This document shows, piece after piece, positions 1,183 through 22,264 of a DNA stretch of 22,264 nucleotides. The stretch lies in NCBI RefSeq assembly GCF_000003605.2, contig NW_003112965.1, positions 56,149 to 78,412 on the forward strand, written 5' to 3'. The stretch's first letter is position 1; each line of letters starts with the position of its first letter. This DNA comes from Saccoglossus kowalevskii (Eukaryota > Hemichordata > Enteropneusta > Harrimaniidae). Below the pieces are notes generated by a model. That model did not search any database, was not told the origin of the DNA, and was given only the letters and a program-made list of their open reading frames with translations. A program made the translations under genes and the position numbers.

Positions 1183-1262
1183 ATTTGCATTGGTTAGTAT
1201 ATATGCCCAGCAAGATGCAGAGTGTTCAAATACACACTTATCCAATACACCATCTTTACCAT
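1183..1262 (-). CDS. Exon 8: last exon seen, end uncertain
   Basis: The acceptor is GTTTCCATAG. In phase 1 it gives D-GKDGVLDKCVFEHSASCW followed by AYILTNAN. The proposed donor GTATGG at 1177-1182 is weak. If it is not used, the frame runs another 17 codons into the degenerate 62-bp repeat and stops at 1129-1131 (TAA), which would make this the terminal exon. Confidence 0.6.
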
Positions 1263-4200
1263 CTATGGAAACGAACAAGAGGATTAGTTAGACACATTGT
1301 GTTGTAACATAGTTCAGCACTGCCAACAACTAACATTTATAATATATATAAACCTCATCAGCTGTATCATGGAAAACAATAATTGAAATTTATATTCGAA
1401 TTTCTAAACCACTGATAAATGTACACAGAGAATACAATACCGGTTCCAGGCTTTGGTAGTAACCGTCTGAACAGGAAGTATAATCCTTCAACCAAACACA
1501 CCTGTGACAAATATGGGAATGATAAAGATTGTGAAAAAACCTTTTTAGCATCATTTTGAACCAAATTCATAAGCATCAATTCCATCAACTTGCCTAGACT
1601 TCCACAGCCATCCAGACCTGATCACTTCCCCAAACCACTTCCTTTCAAACCTGATAACTTCCCTAACCACTTCCCTTCCAGACCTGGTCAAATAACTGAC
1701 CACTCCCCCTTAGACCTGATCACTTCCTTCCACTACTTCCATGATCACCTCCCCAAACCACTGGCCTAGAAGACCTGATCACCTCCCCAAACCACTGGCC
1801 TACAAGACCTGATCACCTCCCCAAACTACTGGCCTTCAAGACCTGATCACCTCCCCAAACCACTGGCCTTCAAGACCTGATCACCTCCCCAAACTACTGG
1901 CCTTCAAGACCTGATCACCTGCCCCCAACCACTAGCCGTCAAGACCAAATCATTTCACCAACCACTTGCTTTTCAGACCTGATCACTTCCCTAAACAATC
2001 TGGCTTCCAGTCACATCCCCCAAACACCTTCATTTTAATATGATATATACCTGTAGTAGATAATACTCGGTAAGCTTAGTCCTAAATAACTATTAAAAAT
2101 AGGTAGATGTTTCGAGCAATGGCTCTTTATCGATAGAATATAAGTAAATGTTTAAACGTATAGAAGATATTATCTACTATATATCATATTTATCTGTCTG
2201 AACAGGGTTTATTCATTAACCACTTACCTTTTAGACCTTACCACTTTCCCAAACCCTTCCCTTCAGACCTGATCAGTGGACACTGATTCTGTGTAAAGAA
2301 GTTGATGTAATAATACATACCTTTTGTGCAAAGTTCATATTTCGTTGGTGTAACTGCAGATCCAAACTTGCAACAAGCGGTGGAAATGCAGTGAGTTTTC
2401 GTACAAAGCCAAGAACATTCTTATTGTTTATCTTTGAGTGGTTATGACTAATCTAAATGTATAAAACATGTATTACTAGAGTTTAATAGAAGCACACATG
2501 CACCAAAACTTATATAAAATGCAATTTAATATATAATCGATCATCAAAATATGGCTTATTAAATATGAGATTGTTACTTGAGCTACCTGGTAGTGTGATT
2601 CATTCAGCACAGAGAACAGAATACTATAATCACTCTGACTACTGTTATCATGATTAAATTTTCAATACTACTAAAATTCTTGATTTTCCAATATTTAATG
2701 AATTCATGATTTCGCATGATGGTCATGGCAAATAGAACTGAGTTGTTTATTCAACAAAACTATCCAATGACTTTATATGGCAAGTAGAATCATGTTGTCA
2801 ATTTTGGTACTTTGATTTCATATATGATGTCATAATCAGGTTTCATAAAATAACTGAGATTCTAGAATGCATATGGTCCAACTCAAAAAAGCATCATTGC
2901 TGCAAAGTGCAATTTTGACTAAAACAATTACAAAACTTTTGCACGAGTTTTTAAGCAAAACAAGCTGAAGTATACTTACAACTACATTCAAAACTGAGTA
3001 AAATACAGCCAGTCCAGTCAGTGTTTGTTCCGTGTATGTGTTGATATCAGCATCAAATTGGCGACTCTTACTGACATAGTTATCACATGTCAGCGATGAA
3101 AGTGCCACCATTATTGTCTGACCATCAACAACCCCGTGTTTATCAAGACTGTCATCATCCGAGTTTTTCCAACTACAATCATCCAATCTAGCAAAGAAAT
3201 TAGACATTATTTTGAATGAGTTTGAGAAGGGTAAATAAAGTATGTTACCACTATATCAGTACTTTTCATTCGCAGTACATGTTTACTGAAATCAGTCACT
3301 GACTAGTAGTTGTGCATGTGACAAGTTAGACAAGATTTTTAACGAAAAAATAAGCTATGCATGTCTGTATTCTACTGTTCCTTCGATGGTTTAATATTTC
3401 ACACACTATACCTTTCTAATTTGGTTGTCTGATTTAGACTCATATTACGAAAACTGTTGTATTTGAAAACTTGTATTTGGTGTTAGCACTGTATATTATA
3501 CATCTGTCACCGTAACGCCATAAGTTACAGCGTGCCATAATTTTGTGGTATTTTACAGGGTATTTTTTTCCTACCATATAAGAAAATGCAAATTCCAAAT
3601 ATGGAATGATTATGCGCGAAAGCATCCTCTAATAATAAAAACAAACATGGCTGCCACCAGGGTTTGATCGGACTCTACACAAAGAAGTTCGCTGATTCTG
3701 TTCTAAACTTTTAGATTTCAGCATTCCCATGATGTATCCTTGGAAGGAAAAGACATATAATAATAGGGTTATTATGAGAATACCTCAAAGTATGCACTCA
3801 GACAGTACGCCATGCATTGACGATACTCCAGCTGTACTGTTGTCTTCGTGCATATTTGAGGTATTCTCGTAATAACCTCATATTATCACTATGTTGAATA
3901 TAAATACCTGAGCCTTTGACAGCTTGTCTCAATACCAGTGGCCGAGTAGATCTTTCGTTTTAGAGTCTAATGTAAAAGATAAGAAACATTCATTCTTTCT
4001 CACAGTCCCTTTTTTTTGTACTCATATTAAATAAATTATTTGTTATTTTAATGAATAATATGCATTAGGTTATACTGTAAAATACTTTATTTTAACTGGA
4101 ATTAATTTTCGCTAAAAAGACTTTTTGGATGTTTTGTATGGAATTTATTTTCACTGATTTTTGACGAGTTGAATGTAAAATATAGGAAAAAAAGTATATT

Positions 4201-7200
4201 CGCTGGATTTTATTTTCACTGAACCATTCCTACAGCGAAAATAGAGTGACAGCGGCATTCATGCATGCAAAATTTGCAGCTCTTTCTCAGAATTTGATTC
4301 AGGTAACCATGACTGTTTAGGTTCTTTATGATATGTATTATACTGAAGCATGATGTGAACATCAAGATGTCACATTCAATAATAAAACCAACCAGAAAAT
4401 TGATCATGTTTTATACAGAAAAGACAAGTGTTTATCAAGGCTTGGTGATTTGTATAATCCGGAACATAAAAATCTGGAGCGCTTCCTGATTACACTTGAC
4501 AATTTTTCCTTGTTTTTATGGTTTGTTTTGGCACGCGGCAGTCAAGCTAAATCAACATTTCGCTATTACGTCATTTTACCACAATTTGCTAAAATTGCAT
4601 GTCACTTTTTCAACATGTTTTACAGTATGTCTGTGAATCACTGTAGTAGAGTGTTTCCCTATCGTCGGAAAAAGGAACTAATCTGATAGGAGTCCACCCA
4701 AGGTAACTACATAGAACATATAAAAGCAATTAGACTGGTAACTTTTAAGAAAAAGTGGAGAATATAATTTTTTACCAAAAATATTTGCTAAAAATAAAGA
4801 ATTGAAGACATCAACACAAAATGAACTAATCTGACGGAGGTCCACCCAATGTACATACATACCAAGTATAAAAGCTGTCTTCCTCGATGACAGTAAAGCT
4901 TAGAAGTTGACAATGATAATCTGAAGCCTATTTTAAATTATATTTGAACCAAAATAAACAAAAGCAATTGAAAAAAAATGTTGGCAGAATAAACGATGGC
5001 GTTCAAATAATATTTATTACATAAACTAGAGCAATTATGTTACTGATATTAATATACATGTAGTAATAAATTGCATGTATTGATTGACCGATGGAAAGTA
5101 ATAGAAACTGAACATTACCAATACTGTGTCATTTGCCAAGTCTACATGTACTTTGTATGTGTCACCCATCATGATATGGACATATAGTATCGCCATTCCA
5201 ACCTCATGGTCTAGCTTCTCCTCAGTAATTAGTGTCATGTCTCGTAAACCAGTCTTAGTAAAGATCACAAATAAAACTGATCCAGACTCAATTTTACGTT
5301 TCTTTAGAGTCCCTGTGAAACATAAAACATTATAATATCAAATCAAAAAAAGAAATAAATTTGATTGTGGTTTTCAGTCTGATTCATTTAAGAGCACAAT
5401 TGAAAAATAAAGTGTGGTTATTGAGATAGAAAACTGCCTAACTTGTGCAAATTAGGTAATTAAGAAATAATATTAATTAATAACATAAATTAATAATAAT
5501 ACTAAGGTCTGTGGATTATTTCAGAAGCACTCTTTATTGTTCAAGTTTTATTAAAATCTGTTTGGTGGTTCATGTGAAAATCAGGCTTGTTACTATTCAT
5601 CATGAATTGTGTGTTATCACAGAACATCTATGTACATGTATTAAGTTCGATTGAAATCTGTGAATTGGTTCTTGAGATATCAATTAAATTACTTCCTAAA
5701 TAACTAAGTAGTTTTGTTTATGTGAAAAAAAGATTGAGATTCATAATTTGTTGAAATTTTCAGTGGTAGAAAGTGTTTAGATCTGTGATAGAGATCACCG
5801 AAATTGATGTATTCATCAAGAAATGTCACGTTTTAAAACCTGGATAAGGTCAAGTAGTACTTACCACTGTAAAAGAGAGTGTATACTGTGAATGGGGGAA
5901 GGGGTGTTACCGACAACCGCGAGTGGTGGAGTAATGACAACCAAGTAAAGGGGAGTACTGACAACCTTTTTGGGGGATGGGGTAATGACAACCGTGAGTG
6001 GGGGAGCACTGACAACCGTGAGTGGGGGAGCACTGACAACCGTGAGTGGGGGAGTACCGGGTACTTACATTTATTGAGGAACACATCACATGTGATAGGA
6101 ATACCCTCTGCTGTATAAATCTGAACTTCACAATCTTCCGTCAATGGATCCACTTTGGATAACAAACATATCAGGTAATCTACTGTGTGTTTATCAGGAT
6201 CCAAGCCATCTATCTTACGACTCACAGTCTTCAGTAAACAATCAAAGGTTTTGTAGAAAATAACATATTGTTCACAATTTGAATGAGTTGGCTTGAGTTG
6301 ACAAGCAACTGTCTGATATAAAAATTGACAATCAGATTGGTCGCTAGTTAGATGGTCTGGAGACTTCTTGTGAGACTGGTCATGAGCATTGACTGAAAAA
6401 TCTGACAACTGAAAACCAGTTTGACCACTCTGCTCATCCGACTGATCCATTGGACAGTGCTCAATGGATGGAGGCAACTGGATATCAGGTAAACTCAAGT
6501 CTGATTCCATTGGTTGGTGTAAACCTTGCTCAACAATTGCAGGAGACTTGACATCACATAAACACAAACTTGATTCCAAAGACTGACTTTGATCTTGCTC
6601 AACAGCTGAAGAATACTTGGTATCATGTGAACTGGAATCTGATGCTATTGGTTGATGTAAATCTTGCCCAGAGGCTGGACATGACTTGACATCATGTATA
6701 CTCAAACTTGATTTTATTGATTGATGTAAAGCTTGACCAATGGCTGGAGAAAACTGGACATTAGGTGAAATAAAACTTGCTTTCATTGGCTGATGGTCTT
6801 GCCAAATGGCTGGAGAAGTTAAGACATTGTGTGAACTCAAACCTGATTCTATTGGTCGATGTAAATCTTGTCCAATGGCTGGAGAAGACTGGACATTAGG
6901 CGAAATCAAACTTGCTTTACGTGGCTGATGATCTTGCCCAATGGCCGAAGAAGTCAGGACATTGTGTGAACTTAAACCTGATTCTATTGGTCGATGTAAA
7001 TCTTGCCCAATGGCTTGAGAAGACTGGACATTAGGCGAAATCAAACTTGCTTTCAGTGGCTGATGATCTTGCCCAATGGCCGAAGAAGTCAGGACATTGT
7101 GTGAACTTAAACCTGATTCTATTGGTTGATGTAAATCTTGCCCAATGGCTTGAGAAGACTGGACATTAGGCGAAATCAAACTTGCTTTCAGTGGCTGATG

Positions 7201-9855
7201 ATCTTGCCCATTGGCCGAAGAAGTCAGGATATTGTGTGAACTTAAACCTGATTCTATTGGTCGATGTAAATCTTGTCCAATGGCTGAAGAAGACTGGACA
7301 TTAGGTGAAATAAAACTTGCTTTCAGTGGCTGATGATCTTGCCCAATGGCCGAGGAAGTCAGGACATTGTGTGAACTTAAACCTGATTCTATTGGTTGAT
7401 GTATATCTTGCCCAATGGCTGAAGAAGACTGGACATTAGGCGAAATCAAACTTGCTTTCAGTGGCTGATGATCTTGCCCAATGGCCGAAGAAGACAGTAC
7501 ATCATGTGAGCTTAAACCTGATTCTATTGGTCGATGTAAACTTTGCCCAATGGCTTGAGAAGACTGGACATTTGATGAAATCATTGGCTGATGATGGTCT
7601 TGTCGAATGGATGGGGAAGTTAGAACATCGTGTGAACTTAAATTTGATTCTATTGATCGATGTAAACTTTGCCCAATGGCTTGAGAAGACTGGACATTTG
7701 GTGAAATCATTGGCTGATGATTGTCTTGTCGAATGGACGGGGAAGTTAGAACATTGTGTGAGCTTAAACCTGTTTCTATTGGTCGATGTAACCCTTGCCC
7801 AATTGCTGGAGGAGACCAAACATCAGATGAACTCAAACCAGACTCCAACTGCTGACATTGACCTTGATGAAAGGTGTGCGGTGACTGGATATCTTGTGAA
7901 TTAGTACTAGTACTATTATTTGAAGTTGGTGATAGAATCCCTCTGGGTAGAATAGAATCAGTTGTTTTATCATCACCTCTCAATTCAGAACACATTCGAT
8001 TAAACCGATTTCTTTGAATTTTAGTCATTCCTGTGGGAAAAACAAACAAAAAAGCATCTAGATAAATCTTCTGCATGATAAAGATACTGAGCACAAAGAA
8101 GGGAATTCAAAAAAATATTCACTTCAAACATATTAAAACAAGAGTTAGACAAAACTGGTTCTTGAGAATATTATGAGATTATTACGAAGATACCTCAAAG
8201 TATGCACGAAAACAGTACAGCGGGAGTATCAACCAACACGCAGTGTAGGTTGATGCGATGGCGTACTGTCTGAGTGCATACTTTAAGGTATCCTTGTAAT
8301 AACCTTATTATACATCTTTTCCTTGTCGAAATCCGAAAGGTTTAGAACACCCTGGTGGCAGCCATGTTTGTTTTTATTATTAGAGGACGCTTACGCGCGT
8401 AATCATTTCATATTTGGAATTCGCATTTCTTTATATGGTAGGATGAAAATACCCCGTAAAATACCGCAAAATTCGCATTTCCTTATATGGTAGGATGAAA
8501 ATACCTTGTAAAATACTGCAAAATTATGGCACGTTGTAACTTATGGCGTTACGGTGACAGATGTATAATAAACAGTGCTAACACTAAATACAAGTAATTG
8601 ACATGTTCCCGGTGCTTTAAAGTTATTAGCTTAAAATAAAGTTGGTATAATTGGAGTTTATAAAGATAGTTGGAGTATACCACTCGATTTTTACCACTTC
8701 ATTCCAAATACATATGTTGTGAAACGTAGTACCAGTATACTCAGTAACTTGTCTCAAATTTAATGAAACAAATTTGTTCATTATTATATTAATAATAATA
8801 ATATAATAATAACCTTTATTATAACCGTAAAGAAGTTACAATTCTTTTTTGGTTTGTAAATAATAAAGTATTTTTTTTTTTTTGTTGTTGATATATTGTA
8901 TATAAACACCAACTTAACTACTAGTTAGTGCTAGTCTTTTAGTAAAAGCATTGTTTAAGTATCTGATAACATGTCTAAGCAGAGATGGCTCTGTCGTGTT
9001 TGAAATCATTTTGAATTTGTCGATGTAATTCTGTGTTGAGAAATTATTGTATATTCTGTTAAATTGTTCATAAACTTCTTGTCTTTCATTTGTATATATT
9101 TGACAGTGTAATGTGAAATGTATTTCGTCTTCTGTTGTTTTACATATTTTGCAAATTCTTTCATCAGCTGGTGTTTTAGGACGTGTATTTCTCCCACCTT
9201 CAATTTCTACGCTACGGAAGCTTAGTCTTAGTTTGGCTAGTGTTTTAATATCTTGATATTTTTTCATAATGTTTAAGTAGGGTGCACATTTAATTGTGTT
9301 ATTTAAAGGTTTGTATGTGCGAAGTTTAGAGTTTTCTCTATTGTTGGTCTCATTCCAGATATTTGTATATTAATATTATTCAGTCGACACACTGCTCATT
9401 AATAACTGAAACACCCATTTTTAGCAGGATTCAGGTTTTTCTTAGTAATATATTTACAGCAAAAGTACCTAAAAGTTATTATTATTAATCTAACAGGTCC
9501 TTCAATTCACATCTGCTTTCACGTGTGAAACGCAGTTTATTGGCTACTCGCACCCCGTACATCCGGGTCTCTTTCAAAACAAGATCTACAATGTTTACGT
9601 TTGAGATTTAGTGAAGATAACAAAACAGACCTCAGCATACGATTTGGATATGATTGTGCTAAAAATTAAAACATACACAATTCAACACAAGGATGTAACT
9701 GGCAACAAATACAAACCTAAAGATAGAAGATCATCATTGAAGACGTCCAGTAGATCGTCTGTGTTTTCCACTCCAAGGCTACGAAAGGCGTTGATGAAGT
9801 TGTCAAGACGATTCTGTCGTAGCATCGCTATCCATGCATGGCTGACACGACTCAT
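1183..9855 (-). CDS. SAM domain / 45-residue repeat / tandem ubiquitin-like protein, 8 exons, 3' end open
   Basis: I do not recognise this gene by name. Eight exons (9717-9855, 6069-8030, 5119-5312, 3908-3966, 2980-3187, 2321-2452, 1441-1501, 1183-1262) have GT donors and AG acceptors and compatible phases at all seven junctions, giving 945 codons with no stop. Visible domains in order: a SAM domain at residues about 5-70 (WIAMLRQNRL, then LLSLGMTKIQRNRF across the first splice); S/Q/H-rich tandem repeats at about 94-577; ubiquitin-like fold 1 at about 625-717, ending TLKKRKIESGSVLFVI; ubiquitin-like fold 2 at about 740-817, containing TLKRKI, TGIETSCQRLRLDD and VVDGQTIMVAL; then a helical part with LVEGLYFLFRRLLP and FEHSASCWAYIL. 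No signal peptide or membrane segment is visible. SAM domains usually mediate self-association and Ubl folds usually mediate protein contacts, so a signalling scaffold is a reasonable inference. The 3' end is uncertain: the last exon either splices to exons left of the window or reads on to a stop at 1129-1131. Confidence 0.82.
1441..1501 (-). CDS. Exon 7: helical region
   Basis: The acceptor is ATTTGTCACAG and the donor GTATTG. The 61 nt enter in phase 0 and leave in phase 1. It encodes VCLVEGLYFLFRRLLPKPGT, a strongly amphipathic segment. Its end phase matches exon 8. Confidence 0.75.
1611..2275. repeat. 34-bp minisatellite in intron 6, split by a MITE
   Basis: Units follow GACCTGATCACCTCCCCAAA plus CCACTGGCCTTCAA. 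Copies at 1765-1920 are almost identical; outer copies are diverged. The array stops at about 2030, resumes at about 2218-2275, and is interrupted by the palindromic element at 2037-2190. Confidence 0.88.
2037..2190. mobile_element. Short MITE-like element with 24-bp inverted ends
   Basis: The left end AATATGATATATA-CCTG-TAGTAGATAATA is matched on the opposite strand by the right end TATTATCTACTATATATCAT plus ATT, apart from the 4-base CCTG. The element is about 154 bp, AT-rich, with no coding capacity, and sits inside the 34-bp minisatellite. Confidence 0.7.
2321..2452 (-). CDS. Exon 6: helical region
   Basis: The acceptor is CATTTAG and the donor GTATGT. It has 44 codons, phase 0 at both ends, and no stop. 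It encodes NNKNVLGFVRKLTAFPPLVA and ends NMNFAQK. The even mix of hydrophobic and charged residues and the exact frame fit with exons 5 and 7 argue that it is coding, although no long open frame marks it. Confidence 0.78.
2453..2979. other. Intron 5, no feature seen
   Basis: AT-rich intron sequence with no recognised element. The minus-strand frame of exon 5 runs on to 2836 but leaves through a consensus donor at 2974-2979. Confidence 0.45.
2980..3187 (-). CDS. Exon 5: C-terminal half of Ubl 2 and helical linker
   Basis: The acceptor is TTTCTTTGCTAG and the donor is a consensus GTAAGT. The exon starts in phase 2 (completing Arg) with LDDCSWKNSDDDSL, then VVDGQTIMVALSSL, the final strand of the ubiquitin-like fold. 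It continues with FDADINTYTEQTLTGLAVFY, a probable helix. The open frame extends upstream with an ATG at 3205-3207, but the pyrimidine-rich acceptor and the phase fit favour the exon start used here. Confidence 0.82.
3470..3877 (-). mobile_element. MITE family 1, copy 1 (intron 4)
   Basis: One end is an almost complete palindrome (3767-3877): GGTTATTATGAGAATACCTC pairs with GAGGTATTCTCGTAATAACC. The body includes AACATGGCTGCCACCAGGG and CTGTCACCGTAACGCCATAA. The whole element is also found reverse-complemented at 8176-8594. No open frame is present. Confidence 0.8.
3908..3966 (-). CDS. Exon 4: 59-nt exon encoding the core helix of Ubl 2
   Basis: The acceptor is TTTACATTAG and the donor GTATTT. 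The 59 nt enter in phase 0 and leave in phase 2, exactly what exons 3 and 5 require. It encodes TLKRKIYSATGIETSCQRL plus part of an Arg codon. This matches the ubiquitin pattern of a helix, then GIP, then Q-x-L before the LxD turn. No other tract found between 3188 and 5118 meets phase, splice sites and fold together. The donor lies about 25 bases from a palindromic MITE. Confidence 0.75.
4073..4250. repeat. Diverged interspersed repeat (TACTGT... TTTTCGCTA type)
   Basis: This stretch in intron 3 begins TATACTGTAAAATACTTTAT and holds several words such as TTATTTTCACTGA and AATTTTCGCTA. The reverse complement of 15880-16020 shares TACTGTGAAA...TTATTTTCACT and related words. Both look like old copies of one family; the alignment by eye is loose. 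Confidence 0.35.
4675..4880. repeat. Imperfect direct repeat in intron 3
   Basis: GAACTAATCTGATAGGAGTC (from 4676) and GAACTAATCTGACGGAGGTC (from 4822) are followed by CACCCAA and then diverging sequence with AAAAGC about 40 bases on. The copies are about 146 bases apart. The origin is unknown. Confidence 0.6.
5119..5312 (-). CDS. Exon 3: end of Ubl 1 and start of Ubl 2
   Basis: The acceptor is TTTCACAG and the donor is GTAATG. The phase-1 junction with exon 2 yields W followed by TLKKRKIESGSVLFVI, which resembles the last strand region of ubiquitin (TLSDYNIQKESTLHLV in the family). The exon then enters a second fold with AILYVHIMMGDTYKVHVDL, equivalent to the first beta hairpin of ubiquitin, and ends at NDTVL in phase 0. 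Confidence 0.82.
5313..5832. other. Intron 2 left part with weak internal duplication
   Basis: Two related stretches (about 5538-5570 and 5642-5680) share the form TTCAAGTTTTATTAAAATCT / TTCGATTGAAATCTGTGAAT followed by TGGTTC, as in many degenerate invertebrate transposon remnants. There is also an AATTAATAAT-rich run (5460-5510). No gene is seen. Confidence 0.35.
5885..6058. repeat. 24-bp intronic minisatellite beside the exon 2 donor
   Basis: The plus strand carries repeats of the form GTGAGTGGGGGAGCACTGAC plus AACC. Copies are near-perfect next to the donor and degenerate leftward. The unit is 24 bp, a multiple of three, so the minus-strand frame stays open past the donor, with an eight-residue motif VLPHSRLS, to a stop at 5833. 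Confidence 0.85.
6069..8030 (-). CDS. Exon 2: end of SAM domain, 45-residue repeats, start of Ubl 1
   Basis: This is a 1962-nt exon. The acceptor is CCCACAG ending at 8031 and the donor is a consensus GTAAGT at 6063-6068. The first codons (GMTKIQRNRFNRM) finish the SAM domain. Then comes a Ser/Thr-rich linker, then repeats of the type SSHNVLTSSAIGQDHQ paired with ISPNVQSSQAIGQDLH. The exon ends with a non-repetitive part, including CEVQIYTAEGIPITCDVF, that belongs to the first ubiquitin-like fold. The open frame extends upstream to 8094, but that stretch (hydrophobic, ending at the acceptor tract) is intron. Confidence 0.88.
6440..7900 (-). repeat. Coding VNTR, 135-bp unit (45 residues, two half-units)
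   Basis: Within exon 2 the DNA repeats every 135 bp. Each unit encodes two related halves of about 22 residues with the shared pattern S-x-(N/D)-V-x-S-x-A-I-G-Q-(D)-x-H-x-P. The central copies (about 6760-7500) differ at only a few bases, while copies toward either end are increasingly divergent. That gradient is typical of arrays growing by unequal exchange in the middle. The frame is kept throughout. Confidence 0.9.
8176..8594 (+). mobile_element. MITE family 1, copy 2 (intron 1), inverted relative to copy 1
   Basis: The palindromic end is at 8176-8304 and the body runs to TGCTAACACTAAATACAAG. It is close to copy 1 along its length but contains an internal tandem duplication of about 54 bp (about 8418-8471 and 8472-8525, each with TTATATGGTAGGATGAAAAT). 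Confidence 0.8.
8785..9375 (-). mobile_element. 5'-truncated CR1/L2-like LINE, ORF2 C-terminus (intron 1)
   Basis: The minus-strand frame is open from about 9360 to a TAA at 8914, longer than its first ATG (9265) suggests. It contains ADERICKICKTTEDEIHFTL followed by HC, the C-x2-C...H-x-C type motif near the end of non-LTR retrotransposon ORF2 proteins. After the stop, a short 3' region ends in AATAAAGGTTATTATTAT-type repeats, a microsatellite tail typical of this group. The reverse transcriptase is absent through 5' truncation. Confidence 0.75.
9717..9855 (-). CDS. Exon 1: start codon and N-terminal half of SAM domain
   Basis: The ATG at 9853-9855 is preceded in frame by a TAG six codons upstream, so this is the only plausible start for this frame. 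It encodes 46 residues beginning MSRVSHAWIAMLRQNR and ending DDLLSL, the first helices of a SAM domain. The donor is GTTTGT (9711-9716), a weak but usable site, in phase 1. The exon is too short to appear as a long open frame, and was found because it completes the SAM domain begun in exon 2. Confidence 0.8.
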
Positions 9856-11136: not shown

Positions 11137-12843
11137 ATGGATACACAAAATGACAATGCCAACGTTAAGTACTAGTATAACTGTAATTCTTACTCAGTTG
11201 ACCAATTCAATTCACATTCTAACTTTTCATATTTCTCGCATAATTTAATTCATTTTAATATCAGATCTTTATCTAAACATTTTGACGAACTTATTACATT
11301 TTTTAGTGTCGTAAAACATAATTTTCTTTTTCTTGGCCTCGTCGTAACATGGCTGAATTCAAACTCTAACCGTTCTAAGTATAATTTACCGTCCTATAAT
11401 TTAATTACATGTAAGCGTGACAATTCAAAAGGCGGAGCACTGTACATTCACGAATCCTTGTCTTTTACCCGTATGCACTGTGAATCGATCTTTGTGGAAA
11501 CCTGCATAAACAACAACACGATTATCATAGGCGTTAAGTACCGTACACCTAACACCCCATATCATGAATATTTTGACAGTTTGGAGCTATGTCTACACCA
11601 GTTGACAGCCAAGGCTATTGATTCTATTATACTTGGCGACGTGAACATTGCCACGTCTGTTGATTCCCCGCCTGTCACTCACTCACCTGACTCACTACAA
11701 TACTATTCTCAATTCGTACAATTGTTTCCACTTATTATCACATCTACTAGGGTCCCTGATACTTCTAGTACTGCAATTGATCACGTGCTTACGAATACAT
11801 CCGGCCATTTCATACAATGCGGAACTATTCACACCGATATTAGAGACCATTATCCTGTTTTTTGTAATTTTAAAAATTGTCAGCACGCTTTTATAGAAGA
11901 TAATACGGTCTTGAACTATGAGTATACTAATTACAATCATGGAGGTAACAACTTTTCACCTCCATGTTACAATCAAAGCGCGTTTATTGCGGACTTAAAA
12001 TCTTGGCAACCAGTGTATGATCACTCCGACCCTAATGATGCATATAATACATTTTATGACTTAGTTTATACGGTTTTGTGTAAGCATTTGCAGGTCAAAT
12101 TAAATAAAAGAAAATTTAAACATCTATCTAAACCTTGGTTGTCAAAAGGTATAATTAAATCACTCCAAACCAAACACAAATTATTTGCCAAGATAAAAAA
12201 AATCCTGGCAACTTTGAAAAAGAAACGAAATATAAAACATATAGAAACCTTTTGACTAAACTCCTCAAGTCAGCAAAGAAACGCTAAAGTTAAATATGTA
12301 ACTGTGGTCTGGGAGAACCTTGCTGCTGTTTAATTTTTCAGAGATTTTCTAATTTTTATTTCTTTTCTTTTGTTGAATTTCATTGTATTTTAATTTTAGT
12401 GTTTTAGTTTGTCTTATTTTATTTGTCTTTGTCTCATTTTGTACCTTACTAAACCCACAGATGGTTAAGTTGCATAATAAAGTTATTATTATTCAAATAA
12501 CTTCAAGTACGCGCATGGCAATACTAACAAAACGTGGCAAGTGATAACTAATATTTTAAATAAATCAACTAAAACACCAGTTACTCTGTGAAAAAAATAT
12601 TATTGAAGAGTTTAACCATTTTTTCACCAATATCGGATCTAAACTCGCGGATAACATTACTGTCCGGGCGACTTTACTCAATATTTGACTGGCAATTATC
12701 GTGACTCTTTTTATTTTCGACTTGTGAATGAGAGCGATATAATCAATGAAATATATGAAAAGCAGTAGGACATAATGACGTTCCCCCTAAAATAGTCAAG
12801 CATGCAAGCCATATCAACTTCTCACCAACCCGGAACCGGATCT
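11137..12843 (+). pseudogene. LINE ORF2 remnant: endonuclease and start of RT, interrupted
   Basis: Seen in order: a possible ATG at 11137, an early TAG (11173), HFNIRSLSKHFDEL, FLGLVVTWLNS, GALYIHES, ILGDVNIA, AIDHVLTN and IRDHYPVFCNF. These are the blocks of an APE-type endonuclease of CR1/L2-like LINEs. A frame slip at an A8 run (about 12194) separates it from NPGNFEKETKYKTYRNLLTK. After an inserted segment (12286-12495) the frame resumes with YFKYAHGNTNKTWQVITNIL, EEFNHFFTNIGSKLAD and GHNDVPPKIVKHASH, the entry to the RT fingers. Homology fades after about 12835. The copy is dead. Confidence 0.8.
12286..12495 (+). mobile_element. 5'-truncated LINE 3' end nested in the ORF2 remnant
   Basis: This segment interrupts the ORF2 reading between KLLKSAKKR and YFKYAHGN. 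It is T-rich and non-coding and ends CATAATAAAGTTATTATTAT, a LINE-type 3' tail much like that of the element at 8785-9375. Confidence 0.65.
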
Positions 12844-13154: not shown

Positions 13155-13660
13155 GTAAGCATTCCCACTTGTAGACGACCTCTCACTGACCCCTATAAGC
13201 ATTCCCACTTGTTGACAGCCTTTCACTGACCCCAGTAAGCATTCCAACTTGTAGACGACCTCTCACTGACCCCTGTAAGCATTCCCACTTGTTGACAGCC
13301 TTTTACTGACCCCAGTAAGCATTCCCACTTGTAGACGACCTCTCACTGACCCCTGTAAGCATCCCCACTTGTTGACAGCCTTTCACTGACCCCAGTAAGC
13401 ATTCCCACTTGTAGACGACCTCTCACTGACCCCTGTAAGCATTCCCACTTGTAGACGACCTCTCACTGACCCCTGTAAGCATTCCCACTTGTTGACAGCC
13501 TTTCACTGATCCCAGTAAGCATTCCCACTTGTAGACGACCTCTCACTGACCCCTGTAAGCATTCCCACTTGTTGACAGCCTTTCACTGACCCCAGTAAGC
13601 ATTCCCACTTTTAGACGACCTCCCACTGACCCCTTTAAGCATTCCCACTTGTAGACACCC
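13155..13660. repeat. 40-bp minisatellite with A/B alternation
   Basis: About 12.6 units of 40 bp start GTAAGCATTCCCACTTGT. Type A continues AGACGACCTCTCACTGACCC plus CT; type B continues TGACAGCCTTTCACTGACCC plus CA. The order by unit is A B A B A B A A B A B A plus a partial copy, i.e. an 80-bp higher-order unit with one B missing between units 7 and 8. Confidence 0.93.
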
Positions 13661-15095: not shown

Positions 15096-18000
15096 CTAAA
15101 AACATAAATACAAACGCAATTGTTATAGTTGTGTATTAAATATTTAAACATTCCTGGCAACACAGTCACAAGATAATCCTAATGCGGTTGTCTTTCATTT
15201 TTAATTGAATTTTAATTGAATAACACGAATCCTTGCAGTGGTTCTGATAATCAGTTTGGAAGATGGCTTACAACACAGCGAAACACTTGGTTTCTATTCT
15301 AGACTTGATGGCACTGTTTAACAGATGGTGTACTATGTGTGTGTAATGATTTGAGGCTATGACCTTTAGTTTAGTTATTTGCATAATGATATTGATACAT
15401 TGTATGGAACATCTCCTGAGTATTTAGACTCAGTTCCAGGCCTAGCAGTTGAGCAATAAACACTTTGGCTACAAGAGCTCCTCTCCAGTGTGTTATTCTC
15501 CTCCCGGATTTGGTGACCAATACTCACTTGGTTCACTTTACCTTGAGAAGTCTGTTCTCAGTTTATAGTGTGATTCACTATTTTATAGGGTGCTAAACAT
15601 TGTGTCTATATTCAGTAACTATTATTTAATTCTTATTTATCTACATTGTATGTGATTCAAGAAATGTATTCCAATGAATGTATCATTTTGAAAAACTTTA
15701 CATATATGTAGTATGACAATGAATGAATTAAAAGTATGGTAATGCCTTGATGCCGTTTAAAATAGTCTTTCCTTCACAATTTCAGTTTTTTTACATTTTG
15801 ATCTTAAAATTAGGTGTCCTCAAATAAGGCACCCTGTAAATTTATGTATGACTGATCCCCATTCCTTCACTCGTTTTTAATTTTGCTATTTTCGTTGGAA
15901 AGTGAAATTCGCTAAATTAAATCCACATGAACATGTAGAATAACACTTAAAACCCAGTGAAATTGCTTAAAACATCAAAATAGTGAATTGAAACGCTAGT
16001 GAAAATAAATGGTTTCACAGTACACAATGTAATCCTTACCTGTACAACTAATTTTCCAATGTACGTTTTACCATAAATTTTGGGTGTGAATGATATTGTA
16101 ATTAAAGTTCCATTTGTACCAAGTGGTAGCAGTTCACCAGACTGGGGGCTTACAGAAAACTCAACATCACTGCCAGCTACAAAGTAACTATTAAAAGCAA
16201 TTGGATGTCTGCAGAGAAATAAACAATAATATGGTTAGACTGAAAGAAATGTTACATCTATAACTAAGAAATATCATACCCATTAATTATATTACATATA
16301 AACCAAAGATTTTAAATTGGGTCATTATAATATGAGTTTATTATGAGAATACCTCAAAGTATGCACGAAGACAGTACAGCTGGAGTATCGACCGACGCGC
16401 AGTGCAGCATACTGTCTGAATAATATGCAGGTAATCATTCCATATTTGGAATTCGCATTTCCTTATATGATAAGAGAAAGGTACCCCGCAAAATACCGCA
16501 AAATTTATGGCGTTACAGTGACAGATGTATATAAATGAATTATTGTGACCACAGATATATCTCTGTTGCAACATAGTATCAATTGCTACAGTACTAATAG
16601 AGTAAATACGGTATTGTACAAATGCAGACTTTTTATCTCAGATGAGACTTGATTAATTGTATGAATATGTGCATGTGGTATGAATCTAATATGAAATAAA
16701 TGATAAAACAGAAACAGAAACATGTGCAGTTTTGTAAAAACTACTTCTGTTGTACAGTCAGAGCTGATTAGGAGAAAACAAAGTACACACCTTGCCTGAC
16801 TAGTCAGTCGGAATCCTACAGCTGATGTCTTGCCAAGACCCGCTGCCTCTATCGTTATAGTGTCGTCTACTATTGGTTCAGTTGATATGAATCGTAATGG
16901 GAACGTCCACACACCGCCGGTTGCTGCAACTATACGTAACTTCACATCATAACTGTCAAGAGAAAGAATACAATTATTATCTGGCAACCATTATAATCTG
17001 AACAATGACGCTGGAAATTCACACTACCCATACGTAATCTACTAATTAGAAACCTTTATTTATTGTTGATATTTAAATTTGTACATGTGTTCATTTCATT
17101 TCATTTGTTACACATATAAATCTAAGAGTATTGTACAAAATATAATTTGAAATAGGTATAGGGGAAAGAAAATAGCTGCAGCTAATCCAGTCTGTTCCCC
17201 GTTCAAACAAATATTTAAATAAATAAATTATAGGGCAAAAAGTAGCTGTACATCGTACTATTAATTTGTAATGAATAAATAGATATATGATAGAAATATA
17301 TATATACGCAATATACCTCTATATATATATTTATACACACACACACATAATAAAAACTCGAATGAATAAATAGAATATATCAGGAGAAGTTAAAGAAGCA
17401 AATACTAAATATGTACACTCCACATATTAACTGTCAATTATAATTTTTGAGTACATAGAAGACAAATAAAGCAATATGCTGAAAGTAAAACCAAAATGTG
17501 AGAAACCACCACCAGAGACATATAAATACAAGCATTTCATTGAAGATTAATTAAAAACAGTGGATGTGGTATGATGTGATGTGATGTGGTGCTGAGGAGC
17601 ACAGTGTAGTACACAACCACTATGTTAATCACAAGAATACATTCAACTTACTTCATGACTTTGTACGGTGCAAATACTACATTGAATAACAATGTGACAA
17701 TGCCAGTAGATTTATCTCTCATTTTACGCACTAAGCTGATAGCTACAGAGTTACCAAGCTGTGCGTTGGCTTCCTCTGTGTCATATATTATCTCATAAGA
17801 AAACTCTTCTGTTACAGTGTTACCTGTATAACAGAAATAAAGAAATTATAAGTCAGAAACAATCATCAAATATTAGATGAGTAGGGAGAGATGTGTCAGA
17901 TGCAGTATCATGTGTGAGTAATAAATAAATCCACATGTTATAGGAAACAAAACTAATATGCACTTTCCATAACATTAACTTTGACAATTGAATATTCAAC

Positions 18001-21000
18001 TGATCTCCAATATGTTGGCTTTTAACCTTTTCACCACCAGTTCCCTCTTTTCATCACAAATTTATTGGATTGGAATAAAAATAGCCAAATTTTTGGAGAA
18101 AAACTGAAAATTTACTCAAATTTTGTCTGTTGACTTCAAAATTAGGGTTCATTTCCAGAAATATTGAAGATTATAAGAAAAAAGTGCAAAAAAATTTGGG
18201 TGAGAAAGTCAGGTGGTGAAAAGGCTAAAGACAGTCAAGTCAGATCATTGCTTGATGTAAGACATTAAACATGTATTTCCAAGATATAATTGACAGCTTA
18301 TACCATTAAATGCCCCGATATATACAAAAAATGTGAAAAGTACCCTCACACACATTATTTGCTGTAAACGTTGATGTACAGCATCATCACCCTTGACATT
18401 TCTTTTTACTTTTGTTTGAAAGTAAGCCACTGTATGGAAATTTATGTCAAAATTGTCATTAACTATTGGTTTAAAGTGTGTTAAAGTAGTCAGGTAATTT
18501 GATTTTTTTTAAAGGTGACCATGGTAAATACAAGTTTTGTATTAAATGATTATATTGACATTAACTATGTTGAGTCTAGTAATTACTGATACAGTCATCC
18601 TAACCTTCCAAAATTTTCCCGGTGTACGTTGACACTATCTATAACTAGTTGAGTTCTTGACCAAGAAATGATTTTAGCAAAATCGAAGATCAACCTCAAG
18701 CATAAATTATGTTACCGATGGCAAATGGTTGTATCCTAGATTATTCCATATTGGGTTTCAGGTAATAATAGTATTAAGTCATAATTCAAGAGTTGAATCT
18801 AAATGGTTGTCTAATTTGTATTCTAAGAACCACTACAGAAATACAGCCGATACCATCAGGCTTCAATACAACAAACATACCTTCTCCAACTACCACACCA
18901 TCACTAGTGCTGGGTGTATGAGTCTCATCTTTGGGAGTGACTGCTCTAGTTGACACAACCTTTTCATATCCACTAGCTGAGCTAGGTACAGCACCCATGA
19001 GTGTAGCTTCTAGTCTTTCTTCTATGCGACTACGTGTCTGACACTCAACAACAGCACTGTATGTTGCATCAGTTACGGGATGTGACTCTGGGATACCATT
19101 AATTGGATATAACCATCGAATATCTTTGAGACCACCGCTTGGTGAACGTCTGTCAGTATCTCTGTAAAATTACAATAGATAAACAATTAAATCACGTTTT
19201 ATGAAAGGCAATAGTAACATTATGTGAATCTCTATCATATCTACTTTTTTTTTAAAGGTTTTTTTGTGCCAGCCGACCCCGGACATTGAATGTCACTGTT
19301 GTCTCTCCTGATTTTTTTTTGTATGTGCAAATTGCAAGTTCTAGTGCTGACATAGTGCATTTTTGCCACAGAAGTCATATTCATGTTTGGGACTACATGA
19401 CAGGGCTGTGCGGCCATCTTCCTATCAAATGGCAATTTAATGCGATAGACTGGCGTCAACCAGGCTCGGTCGAACACAAGCACCTACGGACTTTAACCAA
19501 GGTTCCCCCAAAGTCGCATTCGTTAGTGAATGAATACATATCTACTAAATTTGTAGATTTAAGCCATTTTTTACCAGTAAATATTATGCAATAATAAGGT
19601 AATCACATTACCTTCTACCATTTGGTTGATCAGGTTGTGTTGGTGGCAGGTAATCCCAACTAGAGTTGTCTTCTGGTCTGATAGAGACAATCATCAATGC
19701 TTCATGTAGATTCATGTTATCGGGTGCAAATGTTATCGGTATGTCCAGGGTTGATTTAGGTGACACTGCAACACCAGTAGAGTTCTTCAATAACAGACAA
19801 AATGCTGATTCTGGCTTCACATTGTTTTTATCTAGATAAGTTTGATCTAAGACATTCTTATTATCTGTAAAATAAATTCACTTTGTCATTAGTGTCCTCA
19901 GATCAGATCGATGTCAAATCAAAATCAATGAAACTGGTTCGTTAGCTACCATTCAGTGCTAATGATAGCGTTCATTTTATATATATAACCAATGGGGGAG
20001 GGAGTGCAGAAAAGTGTTTTCAACAAATTATTGGTGAATGTATAAAACTAAACAATATCATTAATTTCTATAATTGGTTTTTCACAGTCAAGCTTGTTAA
20101 TATTGTACATGACCCATTTTTTGATAAATCATGATATTTCTTTGAAGACGTATTAAAAACATATGTAGGACCAGAAGCTTTACCTAAGTTCTGGACAAAA
20201 CTAATCAGACATCTATGAATTCCAACCACAAAGTGAAATCTTACCTGATAATATAACATCTACAAGTACTGTCTGGTCCATTGGATTACGGAATGGTATT
20301 ATTAATGATGTGTTGCCGCCTATAGAAGCACTGATACTAACTGGATCTACTGGTTGTGGAGTGAAACCACTCCCTGATGCTAAGTATACCAGATCACCAA
20401 GCTGTAATGTAAAGAACAAAGCACTTCAGTCATTCTCTTTATTAATACTTGTGGATTGAACCCACAGTCTCAGTATTGTAAAGCAGGCATGTCAACCCCA
20501 TTACAGCCTGATTCTTTGCAGTTGTTTGTCCATGGTGGAGATATCCTGGGTGTAAGATGATAAAATCCGGTATTGTCCTGATTCATATCGTTGTGCACCA
20601 TCATAAAATGAAATTACTCATATTCATATTCAATTCACTATCTGAAATGGCATCTAAGATGAAATGGATGATAGACCCAGACAGAAATGAGGATTAAATA
20701 TATTTACCTGATCACAAGAGAAAGCAATCTTGGCTGACTGATAGCCTTGTCCCAGACAAGATGGCATGAACTGTAGAGGCAGTTCTACACTAGAATGTGG
20801 TGCTAGAATAATCTGAAAAATAATATAAACCATCAAGTCAGCAAATATCAAAACTACAGGTGAATATATTTTTAGTTCACTAAGATAATAAATATTCATT
20901 TGAAATAATTCTCATATAATCTAAAATAATATTATTATATTTCTATTTCTCCACTACTCAAGCGTTACATGTATGTGTCTAAGCACAAGGACGATACAAA

Positions 21001-21812
21001 CATAATAGGCATAGAAAATAAATGTTATTTATTTTCAACAAGTCCTTACCCTTTTATCTATATCAATTTCCAGTGTAAAGTTATTCATGTTAGTATTAGT
21101 TGGTCTTAGCTGTAAGGTTTCTTCAGTGGGATTGGACAGTTTGATATACTGCCGTGTCCATTTTCCTAATTCACATTCTAAGTGTGGCAATATCACTGGC
21201 GATGGTGTTTCCGCTATCAGACGCAAGTCATACCAAAATTCACCAACATTCTCATTTTGGAATATTAAACTGAAATAAATGAAAAGTTAGAACAGGATGG
21301 CGAGAATAAACTCTAAACAAGACTTGACCAAATACAGACTTAATATTGAGATACCAAGTCTGTATGTAGCATAACATGAATGTTTTAAATGATTTCAAGT
21401 TGAGATGAAGGATCAGCTAGGCAGTGAAGAATACAAGGTCAACCATAACATAGTTATTTAGTTTTAGTTGGCATTGCTGGCCAAATGCTTCCATTTTACA
21501 GGAATTTGGTACTACACTCATCAACATATTAACAAACAAATTATAGCAAGAAAGCAATATACAAACACTGTGACAACTTATCGGGAGTATGGATTGATAA
21601 ATGTAAGAATATATTAGAATTAAGTAGAAAACTGACCTTCCAGTGAATTCACCAACTATAGCAGGTGCATAGGTCAACTGATACATTGCTCTCTGACCTG
21701 GTGTGAGTGTTATCGTATCATCACCATTCAAACCATCACCATCAATTATGACATCAAATGTCAGGTCAGTCACTGTGGGATTCAAGATACTCACTTCCAT
21801 TACAGCTGCAGA
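14877..21812 (-). CDS. CFAP47: Cilia- and flagella-associated protein 47-like, C-terminal ten exons
   Basis: Ten exons join in frame into 637 residues and a TAA stop; every junction phase fits. The exons are 21637-21812, 21050-21269, 20708-20812, 20245-20401, 19612-19864, 18881-19161, 17652-17823, 16791-16952, 16040-16208 and 14877-15095. The product is a chain of ASH/MSP-like immunoglobulin folds, with repeated 'xxNPTxxx...VxxxP...G.FxGR' blocks such as LSNPTEETLQLRP, IIPFRNPMDQTVLVDV and GGVWTFPLRFISTEPIVDD. These and VGFRLTSQAR, SGELLPLGTNGTLITISF and TADMQWTYDIKG match my recollection of the CFAP47 C-terminal half. CFAP47 is known as an axonemal protein needed for sperm flagella in mammals. 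The vertebrate protein is about 3,200 residues, so most of the gene, including its calponin-homology region, lies beyond the right edge. HYDIN or CFAP65 relatives are less likely. Confidence 0.88.
15880..16020. repeat. Diverged interspersed repeat, possible relative of 4073-4250 in opposite orientation
   Basis: This lies in the last CFAP47 intron and ends GTGAAAATAAATGGTTTCAC plus AGTA. It resembles the opposite strand of 4073-4250. It has no coding potential. Confidence 0.35.
16040..16208 (-). CDS. CFAP47: CFAP47 exon i
   Basis: The acceptor is TTTCTCTGCAG and the donor GTAAGG. It encodes PIAFNSYFVAGSDVEFSVSP and GELLPLGTNGTLITISFTPK, the last complete Ig-like fold of the protein. Confidence 0.87.
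16334..16543 (+). mobile_element. MITE family 1, copy 3 (CFAP47 intron), internally deleted
   Basis: It has the same start (TTATTATGAGAATACCTCAA) and the same body end (GGCGTTACAGTGACAGATGT) as copy 2, but lacks the right arm of the palindrome and part of the body. Confidence 0.75.
16625..16790. other. Intron sequence, no feature seen
   Basis: The part of the CFAP47 h-i intron between MITE copy 3 and exon h. It is AT-rich with no conserved frame or repeat recognised. Confidence 0.4.
16791..16952 (-). CDS. CFAP47: CFAP47 exon h
   Basis: The acceptor is TCTCTTGACAG and the donor GTGTGT (weak). It encodes YDVKLRIVAATGGVWTFPLR and EAAGLGKTSAVGFRLTSQA, one of the best-conserved CFAP47 segments. 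Confidence 0.87.
16953..17651. other. CFAP47 g-h intron with AT and CA microsatellites
   Basis: It contains (TA)n-rich stretches at about 17295-17332, a (CA)n run at about 17335-17347, and a TGATG-type run at about 17570-17592. No gene is seen. Confidence 0.7.
17652..17823 (-). CDS. CFAP47: CFAP47 exon g
   Basis: The acceptor is CTGTTATACAG and the donor GTAAGT. It has no long open-frame signature but fits phase 1 in and 2 out. It encodes NTVTEEFSYEIIYDTEEANA and TLLFNVVFAPYKVM. Confidence 0.84.
18021..18229. mobile_element. MITE-like element with CCTTTTCACCACC inverted ends
   Basis: The left end TTTAACCTTTTCACCACCAG is matched in inverse by the right end CAGGTGGTGAAAAGGCTAAA. The element is about 209 bp, in the CFAP47 f-g intron, with no coding frame. 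An outward TTAA/CTAA could be a degraded target site. Confidence 0.7.
18230..18880. other. Rest of the CFAP47 f-g intron
   Basis: AT-rich sequence with short open frames on both strands that lack splice or homology support. I see no further element. Confidence 0.4.
18881..19161 (-). CDS. CFAP47: CFAP47 exon f
   Basis: The acceptor is AATTTTACAG and the donor GTATGT. It encodes LKDIRWLYPINGIPESHPVT, a conserved CFAP47 block, then a Ser/Thr-rich, less conserved tail (VVSTRAVTPKDETHTPSTSD) before the next fold. Confidence 0.86.
19162..19611. other. CFAP47 e-f intron with unexplained complex sequence
   Basis: Between two poly-T runs (about 19243-19266) and position 19520 the DNA is less AT-rich than other introns, and a plus-strand frame stays open from 19286 to 19594. 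The frame gives no recognisable domain. It may be a remnant of an inserted element. Confidence 0.35.
19612..19864 (-). CDS. CFAP47: CFAP47 exon e
   Basis: The acceptor is ATTTTACAG and the donor GTAATG. It encodes FCLLLKNSTGVAVSPKSTLD, ITFAPDNMNLHEALMIVSIR and a Pro/Gln-rich linker ending NGRR. Phases are 1 in, 2 out. Confidence 0.87.
19865..20244. other. CFAP47 d-e intron, no feature seen
   Basis: Ordinary AT-rich intron sequence with a short GGGGGAGGGAG tract near 19995. Nothing else is supported. Confidence 0.4.
20245..20401 (-). CDS. CFAP47: CFAP47 exon d
   Basis: The acceptor is TTACATTACAG and the donor GTAAGA. It encodes LGDLVYLASGSGFTP and IIPFRNPMDQTVLVDVILS, the start of another Ig-like fold, ending in phase 1. 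Confidence 0.86.
20402..20707. other. CFAP47 c-d intron, no feature seen
   Basis: Ordinary intron sequence without recognised repeats or conserved frames. Confidence 0.4.
20708..20812 (-). CDS. CFAP47: CFAP47 exon c
   Basis: The acceptor is TATTTTTCAG and the donor GTAAAT. It has 35 codons, phase 0 at both ends, encoding LAPHSSVELPLQFMPSCLGQ and ending FSCDQ. Confidence 0.86.
21050..21269 (-). CDS. CFAP47: CFAP47 exon b
   Basis: The acceptor is TTATTTCAG and the donor GTAAGG. It begins SLIFQNENVGEFWYDLRLIA and continues with a new fold, KLSNPTEETLQLRPTNTN. The 'GEFWYDL' block is a hallmark of CFAP47-type Ig repeats. Confidence 0.88.
21270..21636. other. CFAP47 a-b intron, no feature seen
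   Basis: The minus-strand frame of exon a runs on into this intron to 21417, but it leaves through a proper donor (GTCAGT), and exon b completes the Ser codon and the fold. Confidence 0.5.
21637..21812 (-). CDS. CFAP47: CFAP47 exon a (first in window)
   Basis: The acceptor is TTTATTGCAG and the donor GTCAGT. It starts in phase 0 and ends in phase 2. It encodes an Ig-like block with SILNPTVTDLTFDVIIDGD and LTPGQRAMYQLTYAPAIVGE. Upstream is the intronic tandem array reaching the window edge. Confidence 0.85.
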
Positions 21813-21822
21813 CTGCAATAAA

Positions 21823-22264
21823 ATGATATGTCAAAGAGATAAACTGACATGTCAAATGAATAATCTAAAATGTCAAATAGACAACCTGGCATGCCAAATA
21901 GCAAGTCAAATGATAATCTGACATGTCAAATGGACAACCTGGCATGCCAAAAGATGTCAAATGGACAACCTGACATGTCAAATAGCAAGTCAAATGATAA
22001 TCTGACATGTCAAATGGACAACCTGGCATGCCAAATAGCAAATCAAATGATAATCTGACATGTCAAATAGCAAGTCAAATGATAATCTGACATGTCAAAT
22101 GGACAGACTGGCATGTCAAATGACAATCTGACATGTCAAATAGACAACCTGGCATGCCAAATAGCAAATCAAATGATAATCTGACATGTCAAATGGACAA
22201 CCTGACATGTCAAATAGCAAGTCAAATGATAATCTGACATGTCAAATGGACAAACTGGCATGTC
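21823..22264. repeat. Tandem array with about 53-bp composite unit, CFAP47 intron
   Basis: The units combine a 21-base block (CTGACATGTCAAATGGACAA) with blocks TGGCATGCCAAATAGCAA and TCAAATGATAAT. Each block carries a small palindrome (GACATGTC or TGGCATGCCA). The array starts about ten bases from the exon a acceptor and runs past the window edge. Several plus-strand open frames here are by-products of the repeat. Confidence 0.9.

Follow-up and report, generated by a model that had tools for sequence, protein, structure and literature searches.

The minus strand of the window, the 22,264-nucleotide stretch of Saccoglossus kowalevskii DNA analysed here, carries a real multi-exon gene of animal type, which appears to be a new combination of known domains, each part being of a known kind. 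From its N-terminus, the product of about 942-971 residues would consist of a probable SAM domain, a long and young S/Q-rich tandem repeat, a tentative ubiquitin-like domain (Ubl1), a solidly assigned ubiquitin-family domain (Ubl2) and a C-terminal region. As judged by its sequence, the protein may be an intracellular adaptor that is clustered by the SAM domain and presents the Ubl folds on a flexible spacer, a reading to which we assign a probability of about 0.45.

Gene structure

Exon borders on the minus strand were taken from splice sites and phase, and six exons bounded by GT/AG together give an open frame of 898 codons. Splice signals and the joined frame place exon 1 at 9855-9717, with the ATG at 9855 and the first 46 residues, which make up most of the SAM domain. 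Exon 2 (8030-6069), defined by its open frame and splice signals, encodes the remainder of the SAM domain, the tandem repeat and the initial part of Ubl1. The tail of Ubl1, a linker and the opening strands of Ubl2 are encoded by exon 3 (5312-5119; acceptor, phase and domain match), the Ubl2 helix by exon 4 (3966-3908, 59 nt; phase scan and Ubl2 match), and the end of Ubl2 together with the beginning of the C-terminal region by exon 5 (3187-2980; joined frame and Pfam). Exon 6 (2452-2321; splice signals and joined frame) continues the C-terminal region, with no family above cut-off.

The largest exon, exon 2, sits inside a 757-codon stop-to-stop frame (5833-8106). No frame exceeded 199 codons in 200 first-order Markov windows, a comparison that overstates the case, since an array open in one repeat unit remains open in the others. 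The small exons, each left out in turn, had codon scores of -0.153, -0.205, -0.069, -0.014 and -0.082; windows of intron averaged near -0.4, with the 95% point at -0.061 for 29 codons and at -0.091 for 44 codons. The small exons thus score above the average intron, with exons 1 and 3 still in the upper intron range; these scores lean on exon 2 and are hence weak.

Since the phases of exons 3 and 5 do not agree, the intron between them was searched for an exon that would bridge them in phase. Two candidates were found, one terminating in a stop and the other, exon 4, encoding TLKRKIYSATGIETSCQRLR, which corresponds to the helix needed by the ubiquitin fold at that place. The eight exons of the original prediction may already include exon 4. 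Direct joining of exon 3 to exon 5 was rejected, as it gave a phase mismatch and no ubiquitin match, just a chance-level YukD line (E 0.24). Junctions 1-2, 3-4 and 4-5 are backed by sequence homology created through splicing, because the SAM and ubiquitin matches appear or grow only once the exons are joined. Junction 2-3 is supported by splice signals, phase and the weak Ubl1 match; for junctions 5-6 and 6-7 the support comes down to signals and phase.

An alternative division at junction 2-3 would give two genes, namely one for a SAM-repeat protein ending past exon 2 at the stop at 5833, and a short one that begins within exon 3, at the MAILYV Met. The frame of exon 2 is indeed open beyond its donor, no significant domain match belongs to the 2-3 junction itself, and Ubl2 would become N-terminal, as in many Ubl proteins. 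However, the donor of exon 2 is present (AAAT/GTAAGT), the acceptor of exon 3 is good, only one of the three phases leaves exon 3 open after exon 2 (no stops versus eight and seven), and exon 3 opens with a region resembling the last strand of a Ubl. Two separate genes are therefore considered quite unlikely, and a single gene running through this junction is preferred.

The 3' end of the gene

A seventh exon at 1588-1502 (29 codons), with a weak acceptor and a good donor, likely belongs to the gene, its codon score of -0.025 exceeding -0.061, the 95% point of 886 open windows of intron that overlap one another. Beyond exon 6, four endings were compared. Exon 7 followed by a possible last exon at 1262-1194, which was drawn from splice signals, contains a stop and is one among several indistinguishable endings, gives 949 codons, and exon 7 followed by 1361-1314 gives 942. 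Omission of exon 7 and reading from an acceptor at 1501 likewise gives 942 codons, and reading through from 1588 to a stop at 1367 gives 971. The ending via the 1501 acceptor (44 codons) was not favoured; its acceptor is good, but its codon score, a weak measure, was -0.504 and fell below the mean of -0.408 in 365 overlapping open intron windows. The range of protein lengths given above spans the four endings.

The original prediction of eight exons and an uninterrupted frame of 945 codons therefore stands as regards the spliced minus-strand frame from the ATG at 9855, with 898 codons over six exons and a likely seventh, and the figure of 945 codons was reproduced by none of these endings. Position 1183, where the gene had been thought to end, is a weak donor-like site (4/7). 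A stop at 1183 occurs in none of the four endings tested, and the one closest to it stops at 1196-1194.

The probable SAM domain

Neither exon 1 alone nor exon 2 alone matched any Pfam family, and a SAM match was obtained only after joining. The best Pfam family of joined exons 1 and 2 was SAM_TNK (PF22931; E 6.1e-5, 23.4 bits; E 5.6e-5, 23.6 bits in a second version). The first of these scores is 1.6 bits under the cut-off of 25; SAM_EPH and SAM_1 were weaker, and all three SAM models remained below their curated cut-offs. When the SAM piece was searched against PDB sequences, all four chains listed were SAM proteins, with weak values (Caskin-1 constructs, E 0.28, 0.38 and 1.1; EphA1, E 0.85). 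The predicted N-terminal SAM domain is thus probable, at E values near 6e-5 in the joined exons but with a bit score under the curated threshold.

The charge of the domain is split, with no basic and six acidic residues at positions 27-46 and five basic and two acidic residues at positions 47-66. The tankyrase SAM domain is described as polymerising head to tail and as having a basic end-helix surface and an acidic mid-loop surface (PMC4980433), and the present SAM piece is split in a similar way, its mid-loop side being acidic and its end-helix side basic. Fifteen tankyrase-2 interface residues named there were placed on the present SAM domain by hand, ungapped and without a tankyrase sequence for alignment, and in this placement six of the 15 are kept in kind. 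Three are acidic (D902, E906 and E911, corresponding to D33, D37 and D42) and three hydrophobic (M907, I915 and Y920, corresponding to V38, L46 and I51). The other nine, E897, Q898, I899, V903, A919, G921, H922, K928 and R932, are replaced by G28, V29, E30, D34, K50, Q52, R53, M59 and L63, respectively, the mildest of these changes being that of H922 to Arg. A further difference from tankyrase is that no PARP family was among the Pfam listings for the pieces of the protein that were searched. Head-to-tail polymerisation of this SAM domain is accordingly plausible as far as its sequence goes. The earlier proposal of a polymerising scaffold or adaptor has the charge split and the SAM_TNK match in its favour, and against it the nine interface positions that are not kept in this placement by hand.

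The tandem repeat

The long 45-residue repeat that had been predicted is real and can be refined into pairs of related half-units, one with 23 residues and the other with 22. In the array at 7830-6700 on the minus strand, seen in a pattern count, by TRF and in self-comparison, a simple pattern count gave 17 half-units of 19-23 residues across residues 114-490, mostly alternating between 23 and 22 (a 135-bp pair) and with 19 residues in two early ones; more degenerate half-units lie beyond. TRF reported 8.4 copies of a 135-bp unit at 90% matches, and ungapped 300-nt copies were 73-85% alike. Residues 91-600 consist of 21% S and 12% Q.

No in-frame stop was present in the nine A and six B half-units tested. 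Six 45-codon units, as compared with their consensus, showed 13 synonymous, 15 non-synonymous and one stop-type change, against an expectation of 7.9, 19.7 and 1.3. With stop-type changes left aside, 13 of 28 changes are synonymous (P about 0.034), the events not being independent. The six B half-units gave 8, 9 and 0 changes in these classes versus 4.8, 11.7 and 0.6 expected, a small synonymous excess, and the nine A half-units alone showed no such excess (8, 18 and 1 versus 7.4, 18.1 and 1.5). This synonymous lean may be taken as weak evidence of constraint on the repeat units.

The weakness of this signal, the likeness of the 135-bp pairs and the occurrence of several non-coding minisatellites in the same window would suit a gene in decay, or one private to its lineage, in which the repeat is a functionless coding minisatellite and the spacer length drifts freely. 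Against this, the frame is unbroken through the array and domain matches stand at both sides of it, and we regard such decay as very unlikely. The repeat is better read as part of a spacer within the adaptor.

Pfam assigned Hisat_C (PF24066) to the array (residues 197-608, window positions 6346-7581) at E 2.1e-10 and 41 bits, with a cut-off of 27. This identity was rejected as an artefact of summed copies, the best stretch covering 32 of 124 profile positions. Single units and short runs gave 12.3, 13.2, 14.9 and 24.6 bits (E 0.16, 0.087, 0.025 and 2.6e-5, respectively), all under the cut-off, and for the stretch after the array Pfam gave no listing. Automatic annotation may therefore misname the protein as Hisat_C.

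The solid and the tentative ubiquitin-like domain

Ubl2 matched the Pfam ubiquitin family (PF00240) at E 6.3e-8 and 32.7 bits, above the cut-off of 25.4. The match was built up by splicing: exons 3 and 5 without exon 4 gave none, exons 3 and 4 gave 24.5 bits, and addition of exon 5 raised the score to 32.7 bits and extended the match from profile positions 3-41 to 3-70. On our own profile, the score was 5.5 bits without exon 4 and 18.6 with it, a value that was not reached in any of 1000 trials in which the exon-4 residues were shuffled. Ubl2 is thus solidly assigned by its sequence as a true ubiquitin-family domain. In a search of PDB sequences, the first chain that was neither polyubiquitin nor engineered ubiquitin was yeast DSK2 (E 0.0033), the better E values of polyubiquitin chains being the sum of many weak copies.

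The roles of the di-glycine and of the Leu8/Ile44/Val70 patch in ubiquitin are well established. In a MAFFT alignment of Ubl2 with ubiquitin, Leu8 is replaced by Met, Ile44 by Arg and Val70 by Ala, and Ubl2 is not followed by a di-glycine, the sequence continuing as VALSSLTCDNY. The missing di-glycine and the Arg at the Ile44 position argue against a modifier or a canonical shuttle. Ubl2 would thus not be a modifier, and its use of the canonical patch is unlikely.

Ubl1, the exon 2 part of which lies at 6279-6069 on the minus strand (protein residues 631-700) and was placed by a weak profile match, is tentative as a second ubiquitin-like domain. Against a profile built from ten hand-entered Ubl sequences it scored 8.6 bits, the aligned part being just residues 69-92 of 93, and this score was reached by one of 2000 shuffles (1635 of which were listed). 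The signal is carried by the last strand region, which begins exon 3. No match for Ubl1 was found in the Pfam ubiquitin family, and a sub-threshold Pfam match to a USP7 Ubl region spans it (E 0.082 and 0.096). Among PDB sequences it gave eight lines with E of at least 0.89, which were beta-lactamases and a nucleoporin and included no ubiquitin fold. A structure predicted for the exon 2 part alone (74 residues, no alignment) had a mean pLDDT of 54.5, too low to use. Ubl1 likewise lacks a di-glycine and continues as FTKTGLRDM. Hence, of the two ubiquitin-like folds originally predicted, one is confirmed above the Pfam cut-off and the other is tentative.

A role in the ubiquitin pathway, which had also been put forward, would make the protein a receptor, shuttle or ligase cofactor with a Ubl2 that binds to the proteasome or to ubiquitin-binding domains. 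The family membership of Ubl2, the DSK2 chain and the USP7 line over Ubl1 speak for it, and like ubiquilin/DSK2 and RAD23 the protein has a Ubl of the ubiquitin family. However, in contrast to these proteins the Ubl is internal and carries Arg at the Ile44 position, Val70 is also changed, and UBA, zinc-finger, RING and protease families were not listed by Pfam for the pieces covering residues 1-927. The proposal is weakened by the altered Ile44 and the missing di-glycine, and we consider it unlikely; an adaptor that binds partners in another way remains the preferred reading.

The C-terminal region and database searches

In the C-terminal region, Pfam found nothing above cut-off in three versions, one of which gave two chance-level lines (E 0.077 and 0.11), and a search of PDB sequences gave one line (E 0.25). 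The helical character ascribed to this region is an impression from the residue pattern; a resemblance to ARM repeats, seen by eye, was discarded, as Pfam gave no match. Rfam returned no match at gathering score, and NCBIfam a single chance-level line (E 0.1). When the 319-residue C-terminal part was compared with two collections of bacterial, archaeal and viral sequence that hold no animal genomes, genome_contigs and viral_contigs, 15 and 4 pattern hits, respectively, were obtained and none was confirmed. A literature search, whose scope excluded most subscription journals, found no protein with the order SAM, repeat, Ubl, Ubl.

Proposed function and comparison with known proteins

In the proposed adaptor, the SAM domain would cluster the protein or polymerise it head to tail, and the S/Q-rich region of roughly 500 residues would serve as a flexible spacer or carry many motifs. 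Partners would be bound by the Ubl end and the C-terminal region via faces other than the Ile44 patch, and self-assembly would then raise the local concentration of these partners. A somewhat unlikely variant is a lineage-specific SAM-polymer scaffold belonging to no named family, in which the tandem Ubl folds lack the ubiquitin-binding patch and a fast-evolving repeat length tunes assembly.

In Ste50, Ste11 and ARAP, SAM is found alongside RA or RBD domains, which have the ubiquitin fold. Like these, the protein would pair SAM and a ubiquitin fold in one adaptor, but its Ubl2 belongs by its match to the ubiquitin family proper (PF00240), and for the pieces searched Pfam listed none of the RA, kinase, PH and GAP families.

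The original prediction also considered an immune-signalling adaptor. In such an innate-immune role, the tandem Ubl would be used as in OASL or ISG15, to which the protein is similar in having two Ubl-like folds in tandem, provided that Ubl1 is real. Tandem Ubl is reported for OASL (PMC6307210), and RLRs with an N-terminal SAM are reported for one mollusc species (PMC8998645). However, nucleotidyl transferase, helicase, death-fold and TIR families were not listed by Pfam for the pieces covering residues 1-927, so that the nucleotidyl transferase unit that precedes the Ubl pair in OASL was not found; in its place, SAM and the repeat precede the Ubl. The absence of a di-glycine is a further difference, and Ubl1 itself is unproven. 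An immune role is accordingly given a very low probability, and the SAM-clustered adaptor is retained.

Should this order of SAM, repeat and two Ubl hold, the gene would add a protein in which a self-assembly domain is coupled to folds of the ubiquitin family. It would also be an instance from nature where the number of repeats between SAM and Ubl may vary, and a testable model of scaffold evolution via domain joining. By itself, the order has no bearing on a long-standing open question.

Neighbouring sequence

A 69-codon minus-strand frame with an acidic tail (165-374), which we take to resemble the end of a pogo/Tigger-type transposase, gave just a chance-level RRM line in Pfam (E 0.081). 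In intron 1, a 151-codon minus-strand frame (8914-9369) resembles, on visual inspection, the C-terminus of a LINE reverse transcriptase, and Pfam gave just a chance-level HTH line for it (E 0.084). On the plus strand, a 359-codon frame at 11176-12255 has a sub-threshold match to an endonuclease-reverse transcriptase (PF14529; E 0.0017) and is likely a LINE remnant.

Open pieces of a neighbouring gene with an Ig/ASH-like look lie at 15947-21286 on the minus strand. Two of eight pieces gave Pfam lines under cut-off (CFAP65, E 0.0043; Cep192, E 0.0013) and a third was TMEM131-like (0.092); this gene perhaps encodes a cilium protein.

Minisatellites occur at 13155-13656 (unit of 40 bp), 21820-22264 (21 to 126), 1742-2004 (34) and 5908-6057 (24). 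Three copies of one dispersed element, with pieces mostly 80-92% alike and partly inverted with respect to each other, are found at 3469-3813, 8168-8595 and 16327-16505, in two introns of the SAM-Ubl gene and presumably in one intron of the neighbouring gene.
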